DNA from: Oscillospiraceae bacterium
GTDB lineage: Bacteria > Bacillota > Clostridia > Oscillospirales > Acutalibacteraceae
NCBI GenBank assembly: GCA_031262985.1
Contig: JAISGQ010000005.1
Location: forward strand, 1 to 64,000
DNA: 64,000 nt
Direction of reading: 5' to 3'
The position numbers and the translations under genes were made by a program. Within the stretch, counting starts at the first letter, position 1, and every line of letters starts with the position of its first letter. The notes beneath the pieces were generated by a model. That model was not told where the DNA came from. It did not search any database and saw only the letters and a program-made list of their open reading frames with translations. Below are positions 21,899-27,891 of this stretch, in pieces.

Positions 21899-21964
21899 AT
21901 TGAGCCGTCTTCCGGTGCTGATAATCAGTCTATTTGGTTATCGGCATTGGGAAGTCGGCTCAAT
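21899..21964 (+). terminator. Cruciform-like hairpin after hup
   Basis: ATTGAGCCG (21899-21907) pairs with CGGCTCAAT (21956-21964). The stem continues inward with one mismatch to CTTCC/GGGAAG, and an inner GATAA/TTATC pairing is possible. TTTGTTT follows. It probably ends or attenuates the hup message before rqcP. Confidence 0.65.
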
Positions 21965-21985
21965 TTTGTTTATGGAGAAATAAAA

Positions 21986-22228
21986 ATGAGATTAGATAAA
22001 TATTTAAAGGTATCGAGAATAATAAAGCGCAGGACTGTCGCAAATGAAGCGTGCGATGCGGGGCGTGTCATCATAAACGGCAAGGTCGCCAGAGCCTCCT
22101 ACGATGTGAAGGTGGAGGACGTTATCGAGCTGACTATGGGTGCGAGAGTGCTGAAATTTAAGGTGCTCGAGGTTACCGAACACGCAACGAAGGACAACGC
22201 CTCCCTTATGTACGAGGCGATACTGTAG
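21986..22228 (+). CDS. rqcP: RqcP-type S4-domain protein (Hsp15/YabO family)
   Basis: An 80-residue protein consisting of an S4 RNA-binding domain: MRLDKYLKVSRIIKRRTVAN and DAGRVIINGKVARASYDVK are the S4 helix and loop. Family members (B. subtilis YlmH partner YabO, now RqcP) bind the 50S subunit at obstructed nascent chains and support alanine tailing in ribosome-associated quality control. The start is the ATG at 21986 after GGAG; an earlier frame extension reads through the hup terminator. Its place before yabP is the canonical one. Confidence 0.92.
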   Translation: MRLDKYLKVSRIIKRRTVANEACDAGRVIINGKVARASYDVKVEDVIELTMGARVLKFKVLEVTEHATKDNASLMYEAIL

Positions 22229-22260
22229 GAGGCGTATTCAGTTTAGTTTGATTAAGTATA

Positions 22261-22486
22261 AGTAGGTCGCAAGGCGACCTACACAGGGGAACCCCCGACG
22301 AGGGTTCCCCTACGGAAAAATGTCCTTGGGGACATTTTTCCTACCCTTCCTGCGTTTTTCTGACGATATGGGTATTTCGCCATCTGCGGATGGCGACTTA
22401 AGACTCTGTCTTAAGAATCTGCAAGCCTTTGCAAAGGCTTGATCCAAACTCTAACTCCTTGGCAACAGATTTGAATTTGTTGCCAA
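22261..22486 (+). repeat. Multi-hairpin array, copy 1 (structured RNA or BIME-like element)
   Basis: Seven stem-loops follow one another in the 349-bp rqcP-yabP spacer: 22262-22282 (9 bp, loop AAG), 22286-22310 (9 bp, loop CCGACGA), 22314-22341 (12 bp, loop TTGG), 22377-22396 (8 bp, C-TGCG-G, a UNCG-type tetraloop), 22397-22415 (8 bp, loop TCT), 22422-22441 (8 bp, loop TGCA), 22459-22486 (about 13 positions). A conserved unpaired linker CTTCCTGCGTTTTTCTGACG lies between hairpins 3 and 4. The first six recur at 27632-27809 with compensatory changes. No ORF is plausible here. Confidence 0.88.
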
Positions 22487-22531
22487 TAGTACCCATTTGC
22501 ATGAGTAGAAACAAGCATATTGCCTCGCTCC

Positions 22532-22584
22532 CGTTCATATAATTAATTGACCCAAAAAACGGAGGTGTCATGGTTATATGAACG
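22532..22584 (+). promoter_or_regulatory. Inverted repeat enclosing the yabP ribosome binding site
   Basis: CGTTCATAT (22532-22540) is the exact complement of ATATGAACG (22576-22584), which contains the yabP start codon at 22578. GGAGG at 22561 would be in the loop. Pairing would cover the start codon and could restrain translation. Confidence 0.45.
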
Positions 22585-22862
22585 AAGAAATCAGAACAGC
22601 AAAAAACAAAATCCACAACGTAATTATGGAGAGCCGCAGGCATCTGCTCATATCAGGCGTGATTGATGTGACGGAGTTCAACGAAAATGAGATACTCCTT
22701 ATAACCGAGATGGGGGAGCTGTCAGTTCGAGGGCAGGCGTTGTGCATCAACAAATTCGAAAAGGGCAGCGGAGAGCTGGATATCGACGGAGAGGTGAGCG
22801 AGCTTGTCTACTTAGAGGCTGAGCTTGAGAAAAAAGGCTTGTTCGCGCGGTTGATGCGATGA
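22578..22862 (+). CDS. yabP: Sporulation protein YabP
   Basis: A 94-residue protein with the YabP signature: HLLISGVIDVTEFNENEILL and a following GELSVRGQALCI. YabP and its neighbour YabQ are needed for spore cortex assembly in B. subtilis and are expressed in the mother cell. GGAGG lies 12 bases upstream. The stop overlaps the yabQ start (ATGA), so the two are translated together. No membrane segment is seen. Confidence 0.95.
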   Translation: MNEEIRTAKNKIHNVIMESRRHLLISGVIDVTEFNENEILLITEMGELSVRGQALCINKFEKGSGELDIDGEVSELVYLEAELEKKGLFARLMR

Positions 22863-23467
22863 ATATAGATCTTTTGATTACCAACGGAGAGCAGGCGTTT
22901 TCGTTTGTCGAGGCTCTGACAGTCGGTGTGTTCGTCGGCATATATTACGACATTTTCCGCATACTCAGAAAGATTTTCGACTGCAAATATGTGTCCGTTG
23001 TGATACAGGATTTGTTTTTTTGGCTCACTGCGTCTGTGGGAATTTTTTTCAGCGTAGTATGGTTTAATCAGGGGACATTCAGACTGTATTTTCTGGTTTT
23101 GATTTTTGTCGGATGGCTGATTTACTACTTCACCCTCGGTTTTGTCCTGCTGTTTATAACAGATTTTGCAGTAAAGCGGATAAGGAAAATCTGCCGCTTC
23201 ATACTCGAGAAGTTTCTGCTTCCTCCCTACAGGAAAATTTCAAGGTGGATAAGCGAAAAAATCGTGTCAAAGGCGAAGAGTAAGGTTAAAAGCAGGCTGC
23301 AAATTTGGCTTAACGCTGAGAAAATCAAGGCGATATTCAGGCGAAAACCCAAGCCTTCTCCCGCCTTAGGAGGAGAGATAAGGCGAAAGCCGCAGGGCGG
23401 TGTTCGCTCCCGTCTCTTTTTTATAAAGAAAAAATTTAAAAAAGTATTGAAATCAGCGGAAAAGTAA
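22859..23467 (+). CDS. yabQ: Spore cortex biosynthesis protein YabQ
   Basis: A 202-residue membrane protein. It begins with the YabQ-type segment QAFSFVEALTVGVFVGIYYD and continues through further hydrophobic helices (LFFWLTASVGIFFSVVW; LYFLVLIFVGWLIYYFTLGF), then a long, very basic C-terminal tail rich in K and R that should be cytoplasmic. YabQ is required for cortex formation in spores. The basic tail (about 85 residues) is long but low in complexity. It overlaps yabP by 4 bp. Confidence 0.93.
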   Translation: MNIDLLITNGEQAFSFVEALTVGVFVGIYYDIFRILRKIFDCKYVSVVIQDLFFWLTASVGIFFSVVWFNQGTFRLYFLVLIFVGWLIYYFTLGFVLLFITDFAVKRIRKICRFILEKFLLPPYRKISRWISEKIVSKAKSKVKSRLQIWLNAEKIKAIFRRKPKPSPALGGEIRRKPQGGVRSRLFFIKKKFKKVLKSAEK

Positions 23468-23519
23468 TGTATTATTATTGTTGAGACACCAACGTGACGT
23501 GAGATGAAGGAACGATTTT

Positions 23520-23840
23520 ATGACTGTTATTATCACTAAATTCCTTGATAAAATAAATAGTGTCGTAAAAAAAGCAGGAAACAAGTGGGTATTGCTGCTT
23601 TGTTCAACTGCGTTTGTTATGATTTTTGTCCTTATATTTCACGCTTTTATGACAGTGCAGGCAAAAACAGAAGAGCTTGAGGCGATAAAATTAGAATATC
23701 AGCAATGTCTCGAGAGGAATCAAGAAATTAATGCTTTGCTTGAGGGTACGGACGAGGAACTGATTGAGCGTATTGCACGGGAAGAGTACGGCTATGTTTT
23801 GCCGGGCGAGCGCATTATCGTTGTTTCTCCCGGGGAGTAG
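23520..23840 (+). CDS. divIC: Septum formation initiator DivIC/FtsB-like protein
   Basis: A 106-residue bitopic protein: short cytoplasmic N-terminus, a transmembrane helix at about 22-45 (WVLLLCSTAFVMIFVLIFHAF), a coiled coil with heptad leucines and glutamates (KTEELEAIKLEYQQCLERN), and the end motif REEYGYVLPGERII typical of FtsB/DivIC. It should join FtsL and FtsQ/DivIB to activate septal peptidoglycan synthesis. AAGGA is eight bases before the ATG. The place between yabQ and the S1 gene is conserved. Confidence 0.93.
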   Translation: MTVIITKFLDKINSVVKKAGNKWVLLLCSTAFVMIFVLIFHAFMTVQAKTEELEAIKLEYQQCLERNQEINALLEGTDEELIERIAREEYGYVLPGERIIVVSPGE

Positions 23841-23912
23841 ATACTATCTCGGGGAGTAGTTATCGGAAGGTGCGGCATAAATAAAAATTTTATGGGAGGC
23901 AGCGTTTTTCAT

Positions 23913-24383
23913 ATGCAGGTTGAGGTAGGAGCAATATTTGAGGGTAAGGTTACAGGTATCACTAAGTTCGGCGCGTTTGTCGAAATTGAGGGCGGCAAAA
24001 CCGGCATGGTACATATTTCAGAGGTTGCATCGAGCTTTGTCAAGGAGATACGCGACCATGTGACAGAAGGTCAGATGGTCAAGGTGAAGGTTCTGAGCAT
24101 CGGTGAGGACGGCAAAATCAGTCTCTCGATAAAAAAGGCGAACGAGGTAAAGCGGGAGAACAATTTCAGCCGTGACCGAGGTCCGCGTCCGAACTACCAG
24201 CAGAGACAGGGACGTCCCGGCGGTCATGATTACCAGCAGCAACCGAGAAGCGAATCAGCCAATTTTGACGATATGCTCTCCAGATTTTTGCAGTCCAGCG
24301 ACGAGAAGATGGGCGACTTAAAGCGTCCGTCGGAGCATGGTAGGCGCGGAGTTTCTTCCAGAAGGAATGTCAACGACAGATAG
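23913..24383 (+). CDS. S1-domain RNA-binding protein (YabR-like)
   Basis: A 156-residue protein with one S1 OB-fold domain at about 4-75 (GAIFEGKVTGITKFGAFVEI, TGMVHISEVAS, VKVKVLSIGEDGKISLSIK), then a basic, Q/R/G-rich disordered tail. YabR-like S1 proteins bind RNA or ribosomes; role is poorly known. I prefer the ATG at 23913, preceded by GGGAGG thirteen bases upstream, to the ATG at 23892, which has no SD and would itself contain that SD. It is the last gene of the spoVB-to-S1 run. Confidence 0.9.
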   Translation: MQVEVGAIFEGKVTGITKFGAFVEIEGGKTGMVHISEVASSFVKEIRDHVTEGQMVKVKVLSIGEDGKISLSIKKANEVKRENNFSRDRGPRPNYQQRQGRPGGHDYQQQPRSESANFDDMLSRFLQSSDEKMGDLKRPSEHGRRGVSSRRNVNDR

Positions 24384-24388
24384 TTTAT

Positions 24389-24412
24389 CGGCAGAGCGGC
24401 GACGCTCTGCCG
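24389..24412 (+). terminator. GNRA-loop hairpin after the S1 gene
   Basis: CGGCAGAGCG and CGCTCTGCCG form a perfect 10-bp stem closed by GCGA, a GNRA tetraloop, six bases after the stop. GTTGCAGTTT follows. Confidence 0.6.
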
Positions 24413-24422
24413 TTGCAGTTTG

Positions 24423-24477
24423 ATACGGTTGTTTAACTATAGGACGCCGTAAGTGTCCTATAGTTAAACAACCGTAT
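24423..24477. terminator. Perfect 23-bp hairpin before the fumarase gene
   Basis: Arms 24423-24445 and 24455-24477 are perfectly complementary over 23 bp around a 9-nt loop. No T-tract follows on the plus strand. It may terminate transcription or protect an RNA 3' end; see findings. Confidence 0.6.
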
Positions 24478-24559
24478 ATATTGATTCGCATTGTCGGAAA
24501 CTCCCAATCACGCGAGTGTTAGGGATCTAATCTATCATACAAAAAAGGACGTGGAGTAC

Positions 24560-25402
24560 GTGAGAGAAATACACGTAGATGAAATAACAAATGCTGTTCG
24601 CGATATGTGCATAAAGGCGAACAAGCTGTTGCCTGATGATTTAACAGGCGCGATTGACAGATGCGCCAAGTGTGAAGGCAACAAGCTTGCACGCGGCATA
24701 TTTTGCAATATGCAGGAGAATATAGAGGCGGCGAAGGAGCTGGACCTCCCTGTCTGTCAAGACACGGGAATGGCTGTGATTTTCCTCGAAATCGGGCAGG
24801 AGGTTCACATTACGGGTGGTTCTCTCTATGACGCAGTCAACAGAGGGGTTGCGCTTGGGTACACCGAGGGGTATCTCAGGCTGTCGGTAGTCGCCGACCC
24901 TCTCAGGAGGAGCAACACGGGCGACAACACCCCCGCCATAATCCACACGAGTATAGCAGAAGGCGACAGGCTGAACATCAAGGTCGCACCGAAGGGCTTC
25001 GGGAGCGAAAACATGAGCAGGCTCGCAATGCTCACTCCTGCCTCAGGGCGAAAGGAGGTCATAGATTTTATCGTCGAAACCGCCAAGATAGCGGGCGGCA
25101 ACCCCTGCCCTCCCATGGTGCTGGGAGTGGGAGTAGGCGGCGATTTTGAGTACTGCGCTCTAATGGCGAAAAAAGCACTGTGCAGGAGCATAGATACTCC
25201 GAACCCCGACAGCTACTACGCCGAGATGGAGAGAGATGCGCTTGAGAGAGTGAACAAGCTCGGCATAGGTCCTCAGGGCTTCGGGGGAGATACAACCGCG
25301 CTCTCGGTGAACATTGAGTTCGGAGCGACCCACATTGCCGGACTGCCTGTAGCCGTAAATGTCGGCTGTCATGTCACAAGACATATAGATATTTCACTTT
25401 AA
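24560..25402 (+). CDS. Fumarate hydratase class I, alpha subunit
   Basis: About 280 residues matching the alpha half of the iron-sulfur fumarase / L(+)-tartrate dehydratase family, which interconverts fumarate and malate. It has VCQDTGMAVIFLEIGQ with a cluster cysteine, RRSNTGDNTPAIIHT, and GNPCPPMVLGVGVGGDFE with a further cysteine. The start at the GTG of 24560 gives the usual MREIHVDEI opening and has AAGGA ten bases upstream; an in-frame extension to 24491 is probably not translated. The beta subunit gene that normally follows is absent: the next gene is hpf, so the partner must be encoded elsewhere or be missing. Confidence 0.92.
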   Translation: MREIHVDEITNAVRDMCIKANKLLPDDLTGAIDRCAKCEGNKLARGIFCNMQENIEAAKELDLPVCQDTGMAVIFLEIGQEVHITGGSLYDAVNRGVALGYTEGYLRLSVVADPLRRSNTGDNTPAIIHTSIAEGDRLNIKVAPKGFGSENMSRLAMLTPASGRKEVIDFIVETAKIAGGNPCPPMVLGVGVGGDFEYCALMAKKALCRSIDTPNPDSYYAEMERDALERVNKLGIGPQGFGGDTTALSVNIEFGATHIAGLPVAVNVGCHVTRHIDISL

Positions 25403-25405
25403 TGC

Positions 25406-25433
25406 TTGATTTTTTTGTGTAATGTGTTATAAT
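25406..25433 (+). promoter_or_regulatory. Sigma-A-type promoter for hpf
   Basis: TTGATT, a 16-bp spacer and TATAAT stand about 80 bp before the hpf start. Confidence 0.5.
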
Positions 25434-25514
25434 ATAGGTGGAGATGGATATCCCAGCAGAAGGACTGCAACTCCACGGGTTACACTACGGCAAATTAAGA
25501 AGGGAGCAATTAAG

Positions 25515-26066
25515 ATGAAGATTACCATAACGGGCAGAAAAGTCAATTTAAGAGATTCTTTTAAGGAACGCGTAAATAAAAAGCTCGCAAAATTCGACAA
25601 GTTTTTCGGAGATGATGCGGAGGCAAACGTAACGGTAACTCTCGAAAAAAACAGGTATAGCATAGAGCTTACCATACGTAGCAATTCTTATATATACAGG
25701 GTGGAGCATACCTCCGTTGACTTAGATGAGGCACTCGATATAATTGTCGAGAAAATATCGCGGCAGATACGGAAAAACAAAACTAAAATCGAGCGTCGGC
25801 ACAGGGCTGCAACTCCCCTTAATTTTGATTATATTTACGATAAAGACGACTACTCGGAGGAGGAGAACTACGAGGAACCCGACTATCAGGTAGTCAGAAC
25901 GAAGAAATTCCCCATAAAGCCCATGGATGTGGAGGAAGCTATATTGCAGATGAACCTCATAGGACACCAGTTCTTCATGTTCCTCAATGTCGATACAAGC
26001 GAGATTAACGTGGTTTATGCGAGGAAGGACGGCAACTACGGACTTTTAGAGCCGGAAAACAGATAG
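25515..26066 (+). CDS. hpf: Long-form ribosome hibernation promoting factor
   Basis: A 183-residue long HPF. The N-terminal domain (1 to about 100; MKITITGRKVNLRDSFKERV, KLAKFDKFF) binds the decoding centre; a charged linker leads to the C-terminal dimerisation domain (about 125-183; VVRTKKFPIKPMDVEEAILQ, GHQFFMFLNVDT), which joins two 70S ribosomes into 100S dimers. AGGGAG lies eight bases before the ATG at 25515; the open frame upstream covers its promoter. It probably rises in stationary phase or starvation, consistent with family knowledge. Confidence 0.96.
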   Translation: MKITITGRKVNLRDSFKERVNKKLAKFDKFFGDDAEANVTVTLEKNRYSIELTIRSNSYIYRVEHTSVDLDEALDIIVEKISRQIRKNKTKIERRHRAATPLNFDYIYDKDDYSEEENYEEPDYQVVRTKKFPIKPMDVEEAILQMNLIGHQFFMFLNVDTSEINVVYARKDGNYGLLEPENR

Positions 26067-26101
26067 AGCCGTCGGCGGGAGTAATGTAATGTGAATACGG
26101 C

Positions 26102-26135
26102 GGGGGTACGGCAAAATTCATTTTGCCGTACCCCC
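26102..26135. terminator. Strong hairpin after hpf
   Basis: GGGGGTACGGCAAAA and its exact complement form a 15-bp stem with a TTCA loop, 36 bases past the hpf stop. The core GGCAAAATTCATTTTGCC recurs in nearly the same form at 60757-60774. Confidence 0.75.
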
Positions 26136-26159
26136 CCTATTTGCGCTGATTTTGCGCTA

Positions 26160-26188
26160 TTGCAAAATTTTGGCATTTCGTGTATAAT
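26160..26188 (+). promoter_or_regulatory. Sigma-A-type promoter for DUF951-prfA
   Basis: TTGCAA, 17 bp and a perfect TATAAT, ending 38 bp before the start of the DUF951 gene. Confidence 0.7.
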
Positions 26189-26226
26189 GCTACAGGTAAT
26201 TATTATGTGAGGAGGAGTTGTTGTCC

Positions 26227-26415
26227 GTGGATGTTTTGGTTGGCGATATTCTGCATATGAAGAAGAAACACCCGTGCGGCTCGTTTGAGTTTGAAGTTCT
26301 GCGAGTGGGAATGGACTTTAAGGTAAAATGCAGGGGCTGCGGACACGAAATAATGACTCCGAGGCGAAAAATTGAGAAGAATATAAAGAAGATAGAGAGA
26401 ACACAGCAGCAGTAG
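26227..26415 (+). CDS. DUF951 family zinc-ribbon-like protein
   Basis: A 62-residue protein opening [20 protein letters not shown] with a later [17 protein letters not shown], the DUF951 pattern: one CG and one CxxC, an SH3/OB-like fold predicted to bind RNA. Function is not established. The GTG at 26227 is chosen since GGAGGAG lies nine bases upstream. It is followed 31 bp later by prfA, so co-transcription is likely. Confidence 0.88.
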
Positions 26416-26446
26416 TTCTCGAAACGGTGAAAGGAAGATATATTTA

Positions 26447-27523
26447 ATGTTTGATAAGCTTTCAGGCGCGGAGCAGAGATTTCTCGACCTCGAGCAGATG
26501 ATGTTCAACCCCGAGGTGGTAAACGACCAGAACAGGTACAAGGAGATAATGAAGGAGCATAAAATCCTGCTCCCCATTGTCGAAAAGTACCGCGAGTACA
26601 AAAAGGCAAAGCAGACGGAGAGCGAATCGAGGGAGCTGCTCGACGCGGGAGGACTGGACAAGGATTTCCGTGAGCTTGTCGAGCTTGAGATTACAACTGC
26701 GAGAGCCGATATAGAACGCATATCCGAGGAGCTGAAAATCCTGCTCCTTCCCAGAGACCCCAACGACGACAAGAACGTAATCATCGAGATACGCGGCGGC
26801 GCGGGAGGCGAAGAAGCCGCACTCTTTTCAGGCTCACTGTTTCGTATGTACTCCATGTACGCCGAGCAGAGGAGATGGAAGATTGAGGTCATGAACGCCA
26901 ACGAAACCGAGCTTGGCGGCTACAAGGAAATAAGCTTTATGATAAACGGCGACGGCGCGTACTCCTGCCTCAAATATGAGAGCGGAGTACACAGAGTGCA
27001 GAGAGTTCCCGAGACTGAAACTCAGGGGAGGATTCACACCTCCACCGTGACTGTCGCGGTGCTTCCCGAGGTTGACGACGTGGAGGTGGAACTCAATATG
27101 TCCGACCTCAAGGTGGACACATACCGCTCCAGCGGCGCGGGAGGACAGCACGTCAACACCACCGACTCCGCAATACGGCTCACCCATCTGCCTACGGGCA
27201 TTGTGGTTGAGTGTCAGGATGAGAGAAGCCAGTATAAGAACAAGGATAGGGCACTCAAAATTATGCGCTCCAAGCTGTATGAATCGGTTCTGCGCGAGCA
27301 GACCGACAAGATTGCCGCCGACAGAAAGTCGCAGGTGGGAACAGGCGACCGCTCCGAGCGGATACGCACCTACAACTATCCTCAGGGGAGGATGACAGAC
27401 CACCGTATCGGGCTTACGCTCTACAAGCTTGAGGCGATACTCAACGGCGATTTGACCGAGGTCATAGACGCTCTCATTACTGCCGACAGAGCCAAAAAGC
27501 TCGAGCAGTCAATGGAGAGTTAG
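26447..27523 (+). CDS. prfA: Peptide chain release factor 1
   Basis: A 358-residue class I release factor. The catalytic GGQ lies in [17 protein letters not shown], which triggers peptidyl-tRNA hydrolysis at UAA and [16 protein letters not shown] and [13 protein letters not shown] are further RF1 segments. The length is normal. AAAGGA lies eleven bases upstream. In many Firmicutes prfA is followed by prmC; here a multi-hairpin element and then tsaC come next. Confidence 0.96.
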
Positions 27524-27630
27524 GGTTACAGAGGGGTAATTACTTTGGGGTTTATTACTCGCAAGTATATCTTTCTTATATCCTGATATTTCGCCTTCTT
27601 TGCCGAGAGAAGTGGTGGAGTTAAATAATA

Positions 27631-27809
27631 AGTAGGTCGCAAGGCGACCTACACAGGGAACCCCCGACGAGGGTTCCCTACGGAATAAATGTCCTTAGGG
27701 ACATTTATTCCTACCTTCCTGCGTTTTTCTGACGATGGGGAGTTTCGCTCTCTGCGGAGAGCGATTTAGGACTCTGTCCTAAAGACCTGCAAGCCTTTGC
27801 AAAGGCTTG
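27631..27809 (+). repeat. Multi-hairpin array, copy 2 (structured RNA or BIME-like element)
   Basis: Six stem-loops in the 368-bp prfA-tsaC spacer, in the same order, spacing and orientation as copy 1: 27632-27652, 27656-27678, 27682-27711, 27745-27764, 27765-27783, 27790-27809. Loops AAG, CCGACGA, TGCG, TCT and TGCA are unchanged, while four of the six stems differ from copy 1 only by paired changes. The seventh hairpin of copy 1 is degenerate here (about 27827-27852). The rest of the spacer (27524-27630) shows nothing I can name. Confidence 0.88.
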
Positions 27810-27891
27810 ACCCAAACTCTAACTCCTTGACAACAGATTTTAGTTTGATAACAGTGGAGCGTTGACAACAGCCCGAAAGGAATCCTCAAAA

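Follow-up and report, generated by a model that had tools for sequence, protein, structure and literature searches.

We describe a string of seven hairpins with a tail that occurs twice in a 64,000-nucleotide stretch of DNA (hereafter the window) from Oscillospiraceae bacterium (GenBank assembly GCA_031262985.1, contig JAISGQ010000005.1, positions 1 to 64,000), and that can be set beside several described repeats: the REPINs and BIMEs, which contain repetitive extragenic palindromic (REP) sequences, the BOX, RUP and SPRITE repeats of pneumococcus, the prokaryotic miniature inverted-repeat transposable elements (MITEs) and the STAXI motif. BOX repeats have a modular make-up. On the evidence below, the two arrays are probably copies of a non-autonomous mobile DNA, kept for a fold in the DNA itself.

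REPINs and BIMEs are inverted doublets of REP sequences that have been proposed to move as one unit, with a fold proposed for single-stranded DNA or messenger RNA (PMC3116915, PMC3733652); in the main text of PMC3733652, no word starts with ‘clostridi’ or ‘firmicutes’. BOX, RUP and SPRITE are interspersed, have extensive secondary structure and are read by their authors as parasitic (PMC3049150), while in STAXI, pseudoknots that bear UNCG-type loops are repeated in tandem close to genes for DNA handling, and its authors considered that they might act as single-stranded DNA (PMC2864571).

Our element resembles REPINs and BIMEs as high-copy intergenic palindromic DNA with inverted doublets, but is a string of hairpins with a proposed pseudoknot and a tail, whereas a REP is a palindrome of 20–40 bp (PMC3116915, PMC3733652). 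With BOX, RUP and SPRITE it shares interspersed folded repeats (PMC3049150) and elements that insert into one another (PMC10969869); compared by description only, it differs in spanning many genera, over which order, loops and couplings are kept while stems change. Like MITEs (PMC10969869), it is short and non-coding, with inverted terminal repeats in one carrier genome (G590) and inverted ends in three others (G488, G529 and G490), but its conserved part is an internal folded core and its ends vary between genomes. A repeated pseudoknot and a UNCG-type loop recall STAXI (PMC2864571), which is, in contrast, tandem and near DNA-handling genes; Rfam scans of the array gave no match at gathering score. 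Among the titles and abstract starts listed by searches of an open-access library, none describes this unit.

A seven-hairpin unit and its distribution

The unit consists of hairpins h1 to h7 followed by a tail. Array 1 (22262–22441, forward strand) comprises h1 (22262–22282), h2 (22285–22311), h3 (22314–22341), a weak h4 or linker (22342–22374), h5 (22377–22396), h6 (22397–22415) and h7 (22422–22441). Array 2 (27632–27809, forward strand), 89% identical to it, comprises h1 (27632–27652), h2 (27656–27678), h3 (27682–27711), a linker (27712–27744), h5 (27745–27764), h6 (27765–27783) and h7 (27790–27809). A preliminary description, made from the letters of the window, had reported both arrays, with stems differing by paired changes around unchanged loops, and the sequence bears this out: in array 2, h2 is one G-C pair shorter and h3 one pair longer, h5 and h6 (hairpins 4 and 5 of that description) carry two exchanges each, and the loops it listed are identical. 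The h3 loop, absent from its list, differs between the arrays (TTGG and TTAG). Also unseen by it, the repeated unit continues beyond h7 as a tail and then a 3′ extension, at 22442–22480 (..CCAAACTCTAACTCCTTGGCAACAGATT.., forward strand, conserved in 75 right ends) and at 27810–27849 (..CTCCTTGACAACAGATTTTAG.., forward strand). Against dinucleotide shuffles, array 1 folds as DNA with z-scores of −12.8 (forward strand) and −11.5 (reverse) and as RNA with −10.5 (forward), 0 of 200 shuffles being as good in each case.

At no more than one mismatch, 116 sites of the h2 motif were counted in the 1.96 Mb genome that holds the window (its own genome), 55 forward and 61 reverse, with none for a reversed control; this count includes some partial or tandem units and misses copies that lack h2. 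A larger count of 231 sites, allowing three mismatches, was rejected because the motif and its reverse complement differ at exactly three positions, so that sites were counted on both strands. Searching the own genome with array 1 gave at least 42 matches, 40 of which span most of the query at 86–100% identity (40 of 131 candidates scored). We collected 104 distinct h2 sites with flanks. The 5′ start of the unit lies near GTAGG (54 of 102) or TATAGG (48 of 102) and its 3′ end near TTGGCAACAGATTNNAGTT, which has 139 own-genome sites at no more than two mismatches (reversed control, none). A split of 98 to 5 between the two h1 types was discarded, since the looser pattern behind it could fit either type. 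The unit is modular: h3 was not found in nine of the 104 sites, although contig ends may have cut some copies, a nested insert interrupts 25 of the 104, and tandem partial units occur at several sites.

The nested insert, often within h6, is a separate MITE-like element with inverted ends (..TCTAAATTAACTTAG .. GTTAATTTTGAAT..), inside or beside h6 at loci L049, L188, L196, L199, L202, L203, L205, L211 and L212. A tandem 3′ extension (TTGGCAACAGATT.., spacing about 32–34 bases) forms the right flank of own-genome loci L012, L193, L214 and L215. Contigs C2, C5, C19, C24, C29 and C50 of the own genome (G000) terminate inside or beside copies; assemblies of carrier genomes may thus break at the repeat and undercount it.

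The preliminary description had suggested collecting further copies and building a covariance model. A model of h5-h6-h7-tail (R1), built from 35 copies of three genera, matches array 1 at 22372–22452 (91 bits) and array 2 at 27740–27820 (93 bits) and found more copies in many genomes. Within the family, R1 matches 64 of 250 genomes and 44 of 135 genera (at most 18 candidates per genome scored) and, within the class, 24 of 391 genomes, the own genome being included in both counts; weak hits in distant families of the class showed h6-h7-tail only or were unclear (13 loci read). Hits of the h2 motif in two genomes of the class, G148 and G168, were inspected and dismissed as chance matches. A DNA search with array 1 among 60 relatives, the own genome included, recovered much of the array in G016 alone; in G029 it found a single stretch of 39 bases. 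G441 has 66 h2 sites. In copies from G016, G441 and G263 the order and linkers are conserved, while the stems of h1, h3, h5, h6 and h7 are largely different. Among 80 named prfA loci, R1 matches two (L098, 54 bits, uncultured Oscillospiraceae; L091, 30 bits, labelled Oscillospiraceae). Presence is patchy even within genera (in genus g2, none in G001 and two in G539; in g31, none in G030 and one in G638), and a genome may hold anything from one match to over 100 sites. Neither array 1 nor a G016 copy had a match in plasmid and phage records, and viral contigs rarely carry the module (three contigs with one exact pattern, none with two others).

In other genera, different hairpins stand in place of the 5′ half of the unit while h5-h6-h7-tail is retained, as at L232 and L233 (genus g323), L235 (G029) and L304 and L306 (f25). 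In two genera, h6 or h7 is interrupted by a second hairpin module (GGCGCC..GTGTGCC..GGCACAC..GGCGCCGACCG.. or a variant of it), seen at L138, L139, L155 and L156 (G441) and at L038 (G263).

Covariation and couplings within the fold

Stem arms covary in the own genome and across genera. In an arm-swap test on 68 own-genome copies, arms paired better with their own partners than with those of other copies, and none of 1,000 swaps was as good in h2 (40 ungapped rows), h3 (63 rows; 34 for its outer part), h5 (68) or h6 (68); h1 and h7, nearly invariant in this genome, were uninformative. In the 35 copies from three genera, 96.6% of cells pair (77.7% when shuffled), both partners have changed in 18 of 25 pairs (mean 14.7 under shuffling, with one of 500 shuffles as high) and the covariation score is 0.559, against 0.200 shuffled and at most 0.173 when slid. 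Among 78 distinct matches of at least 75 bits, from 30 genomes of 25 genera, six pairs occur in all four Watson-Crick types (in one of them C-G 30, T-A 23, G-C 13 and A-T 12 times). Watson-Crick pairs fill 1,901 of the 1,940 pair cells in these 78 copies, with eight G.T and 17 A.C, 13 of the latter in one column of doubtful alignment; this alignment was fitted to the model and so leans toward the structure. The own-genome alignments, which were not model-fitted, hold five G.T and 34 A.C in 3,587 cells, 14 of the A.C lying in one column and 12 in the poorly aligned outer part of h3.

A triplet in the linker that follows h3 complements nucleotides 4–6 of the h2 loop: loop ACG at 22298–22300 with linker CGT at 22353–22355 in array 1, and ACG at 27667–27669 with CGT at 27722–27724 in array 2 (all on the forward strand). 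The two triplets pair in 29 of 43 distinct combinations of genome, loop and linker, against a mean of 7.8 and a maximum of 17 in 5,000 shuffles, and in 127 of 144 sites overall; one of the 29 combinations and two of the 127 sites are wrong-strand matches that were kept in the counts, and the 17 unpaired sites include wrong-strand and chance matches, none of which was removed. On the right strand, six triplet pairs occur (ACG/CGT, GCG/CGC, GCT/AGC, GAT/ATC, AAT/ATT and ACT/AGT); a seventh, CCG/CGG, was seen by eye in L238 and L240, and in one own-genome copy (L027) both sides have changed. We propose from these sequences that the h2 loop and the linker form a pseudoknot. The triplets are not stem arms, so repair of palindromes cannot easily produce them.

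The paired changes—at 18 of 25 pairs, with six pairs in all four types—and the loop-linker triplets support selection on a folded form, as the preliminary description had held, and the further copies did not diverge uncompensated.

Two more couplings involve segments downstream of hairpins. The segment after h6 (AATCTG, 22416–22421 in array 1, forward strand) complements the loop-side 5′ arm of h6 (22401–22404) when the two are read in parallel register, and tracks it, while a tail segment (AAACTC, 22446–22451, forward strand) tracks h7 bases 22428–22432, also in parallel register. With the variable positions labelled X and Y in h6 and x and y in h7, and primes marking the positions coupled to them, own copies agree at X-X″ in 65 of 65 and at Y-Y″ in 63 of 65 for h6, and at x-x′ in 65 of 65 and at y-y′ (C with C, purine with T) in 64 of 65 for h7. 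Linkage was considered as the source of the h6 coupling: in the own genome, r² reaches 1.0 for X-X′-X″ and for x-x′, but is 0.21 for X-Y and 0.0 for x-y, which lie two columns apart. Over the 78 copies, offset 17 in h6 gives 69.7% matches against 57.8% permuted (best of 300 permutations, 61.0%), with no antiparallel register above 45%, and offset 18 in h7 gives 76.4% against 72.3% (best 74.4%). Other registers also exceed all 300 permutations (parallel 14, 16 and 18 and antiparallel sums 75, 76, 77, 81 and 82 for h6; parallel 19 for h7), by a smaller margin and with at most 55% matches.

In the own genome, three of the four possible X/Y combinations occur, so that the h6 case there could rest on few events; the h7 case, in which x, y, x′ and y′ are interleaved and x and y occur in five combinations, carries more weight, as does the test across genera. 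Exceptions to the couplings are cytosine facing cytosine at y-y′, 6 T against 4 A in some genomes, and A-A at 30–47 in 25 of the 78 copies. The couplings may be base-triple-like contacts: in h6, a pyrimidine third strand lying parallel to the purine strand fits what a base triple would need, and h7 fits less simply.

Placement, probable mobility and a proposed fold in DNA

Three features, each weak, in combination favour a fold kept in DNA. The first is the scarcity of G.T, 0.4% of cells in the element against 6.9% (21 of 306 cells) in 14 tRNAs from the loci examined; A.C, which is the wobble of the other strand, fills 17 of 1,940 cells, and the G.T and A.C counts do not show which strand folds. 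The second is the lack of a strand preference relative to genes: for the 84 own copies with callable neighbours, gene orientations were ++ in 39 (genes co-directed with each other and with the copy), −− in 31 (genes co-directed, copy opposite), −+ in nine and +− in five, copies near contig ends having been dropped (20 in the own genome, four in G441). Genes were called as longest open frames rather than taken from annotation, and frames overlapping copies were set aside beforehand; these touched 21 of the 84 own copies (71–145 residues) and 15 of 26 in G441 (74–458 residues), so placement between genes is not fully shown. The third is base skew, 44 of 86 own copies lying on the G-rich strand.

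Pairs of copies are arranged in a preferred way. Among the 100 own-genome sites listed, neighbours less than 600 nt apart are tails-outward in six cases, in the same direction in one and heads-outward in none, and those 600–3,000 nt apart are same-plus in three, tails-outward in three, same-minus in two and heads-outward in one. Three inverted pairs occur in G590, where a tails-outward pair sits within elements that have MITE-like inverted ends (111 end sites; reversed control, four). The 22 G590 loci read measure 39–40 (four), 79–81 (two), 262–271 (nine) and 445–604 bases (seven), and five of them contain the exact tail word of the module, AAACTTTT. Inverted ends were also seen by eye in G488, G529 and G490, while no terminal inverted repeats were seen on single own-genome copies. 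No autonomous partner with the G590 ends was noticed by eye among 100 of the 111 positions, and no protein search was made. At G590 loci L325–L328, the same inverted ends stand as bare palindromes of 39–40 bases with no cargo.

Occupancy differs between two sister species, G490 and G595, which are collinear at 79–91% over the stretch compared. Spacer 1 is 219 nt long in G490, with a diverged unit (46 bits), against 3 nt in G595; in spacer 2 the two species carry the unit oppositely oriented, and the G595 version also contains further repeats and masked bases; and in spacer 3, an array of five stands in G490 where G595 has some 98 bases of other sequence.

We infer mobility, folding as DNA rather than RNA, what the parallel couplings are physically, and an enzyme acting in trans; the reading as mobile DNA follows from the absence of strand preference, the rarity of G.U, the modularity, the inverted doublets, the G590 ends and the occupancy differences between the sister species. 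In such a scheme, a small mobile DNA that is not autonomous would be spreading, or would have spread, as a non-coding, high-copy, modular interspersed repeat; its strand would fold into a hairpin string, held together by the h2 loop-linker pseudoknot and by contacts that the segments following h6 and h7 make with those hairpins. The fold would be maintained in DNA, whether single-stranded or extruded from double-stranded DNA, and the likeliest reason is that a trans-acting enzyme recognises it when the element is excised, copied or inserted. Modules would be gained, lost and exchanged, and joined in pairs with their tails outward; in at least one genome (G590), such a pair sits between MITE-like terminal inverted repeats.

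Several observations weigh against this reading. The tRNA control is small, and in G441 the copies between co-directed genes have the same orientation as the genes in two cases and the opposite in eight. On the minus strand, h1 is predicted to hold a terminator-like site, and the loop C(TGCG)G matches the UNCG pattern, a kind of loop that makes RNA more stable. Just eight of the 22 G590 loci are flanked by TA on both sides, and no copy-specific target duplication was visible by eye in the own genome. The gap at spacer 1 could be a deletion in G595, and the unit there is diverged; beside the missing array of spacer 3, G595 seems to retain a piece resembling the 3′ extension (a weak match, E-value 0.015), which suggests loss rather than insertion. 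Neither a transposase nor an excised form was found, Y1_Tnp being the only enzyme class searched for.

Other explanations and what the element means

One alternative is a structured RNA (a 3′ untranslated region element, an attenuator or an independent small RNA) present in copies throughout the genome and conserved for the way the RNA folds. The very strong paired changes, the UNCG-type loop, the pseudoknot, the RNA folding z-score of −10.5 and the terminator-like site at h1 are what such an RNA would be expected to show, and the preliminary description had called the arrays ‘most simply an RNA’. That view does not sit well with the scarcity of G.T relative to tRNAs or with copies lying both ways relative to own-genome genes. 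Moreover, no promoter-like site was found in 22150–22600, and no Rfam family reached its gathering score over the array: the whole window gave one tRNA only, array 1 searched at E-values up to 5 gave four matches, all under gathering score, and loci of four relatives gave two tRNAs only. Nor is the tie that had been drawn to translation-linked genes supported. The neighbouring prfA is confirmed (its nearest relative is 75% identical), and a 93-residue frame at 21947–22228 is one that we take to be RqcP, but the two spacers are two of 116 sites. We regard a structured RNA as unlikely.

Sites useful to the host as DNA—in the nucleoid, for gyrase or as two-way terminators—that were mobile in origin and are now kept by the host would account for a fold constrained over many genera and for the symmetry between strands. 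Set against this are the patchiness of the element, found in 64 of 250 family genomes and without a match in some species of carrier genera, and a copy number that runs from one to over 100 per genome; this too seems improbable to us.

Copy number, palindromes and inverted doublets would also suit a REP or BIME moved by an IS200/IS605-type Y1 transposase (RAYT), as would the GTAG at the 5′ foot of h1–h3 on the minus strand in the own genome. However, the G016 copies read have not retained these GTAG feet, the length of the unit far exceeds that of a REP, and the enzyme is as common among relatives in general: Y1_Tnp occurs in 26 of 60 relatives regardless of the element and in nine of 20 carriers, and was not found in the other 11, which include the own genome (79% complete), G441 (100% complete) and G490. 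Membership of the REP/RAYT systems therefore fails on the enzyme, though the repeat may work like a REPIN, and we consider movement by a Y1 transposase very unlikely. Least credible of all is that no selection on the fold is involved, template switching repairing imperfect palindromes and gene conversion acting between copies, for although such a process would yield both strict Watson-Crick pairing and symmetry between the strands, the loop-linker triplets and parallel couplings do not form the arms of a palindrome and the interleaved x, y, x′ and y′ agree almost without exception despite five x/y combinations.

Comparable repeats are usually described as one or two palindromes, whereas here a seven-hairpin unit keeps its order, loops and couplings; the multi-hairpin fold, the loop-linker pairing and the parallel couplings make it new among REPIN-, BOX- and MITE-like repeats. 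Covariation alone should not be taken as proof of RNA. If the element, read as mobile DNA, does fold as DNA, its copies form an unusually rich comparative data set for DNA tertiary structure, and the mirror-like couplings that follow h6 and h7 point to contacts open to direct test. Knowledge of the element would also aid the annotation and assembly of genomes from uncultured Clostridia. More tentatively, and with considerable doubt on our part, the element may belong to a widespread class of mobile DNA of the Clostridia that acts as a folded single strand with real tertiary structure, built from a pseudoknot and from base-triple-like contacts in parallel register after two hairpins, and whose mover is neither Y1/RAYT nor a known partner; in that class, the shape of the DNA, not its sequence, would be the identity of the element.

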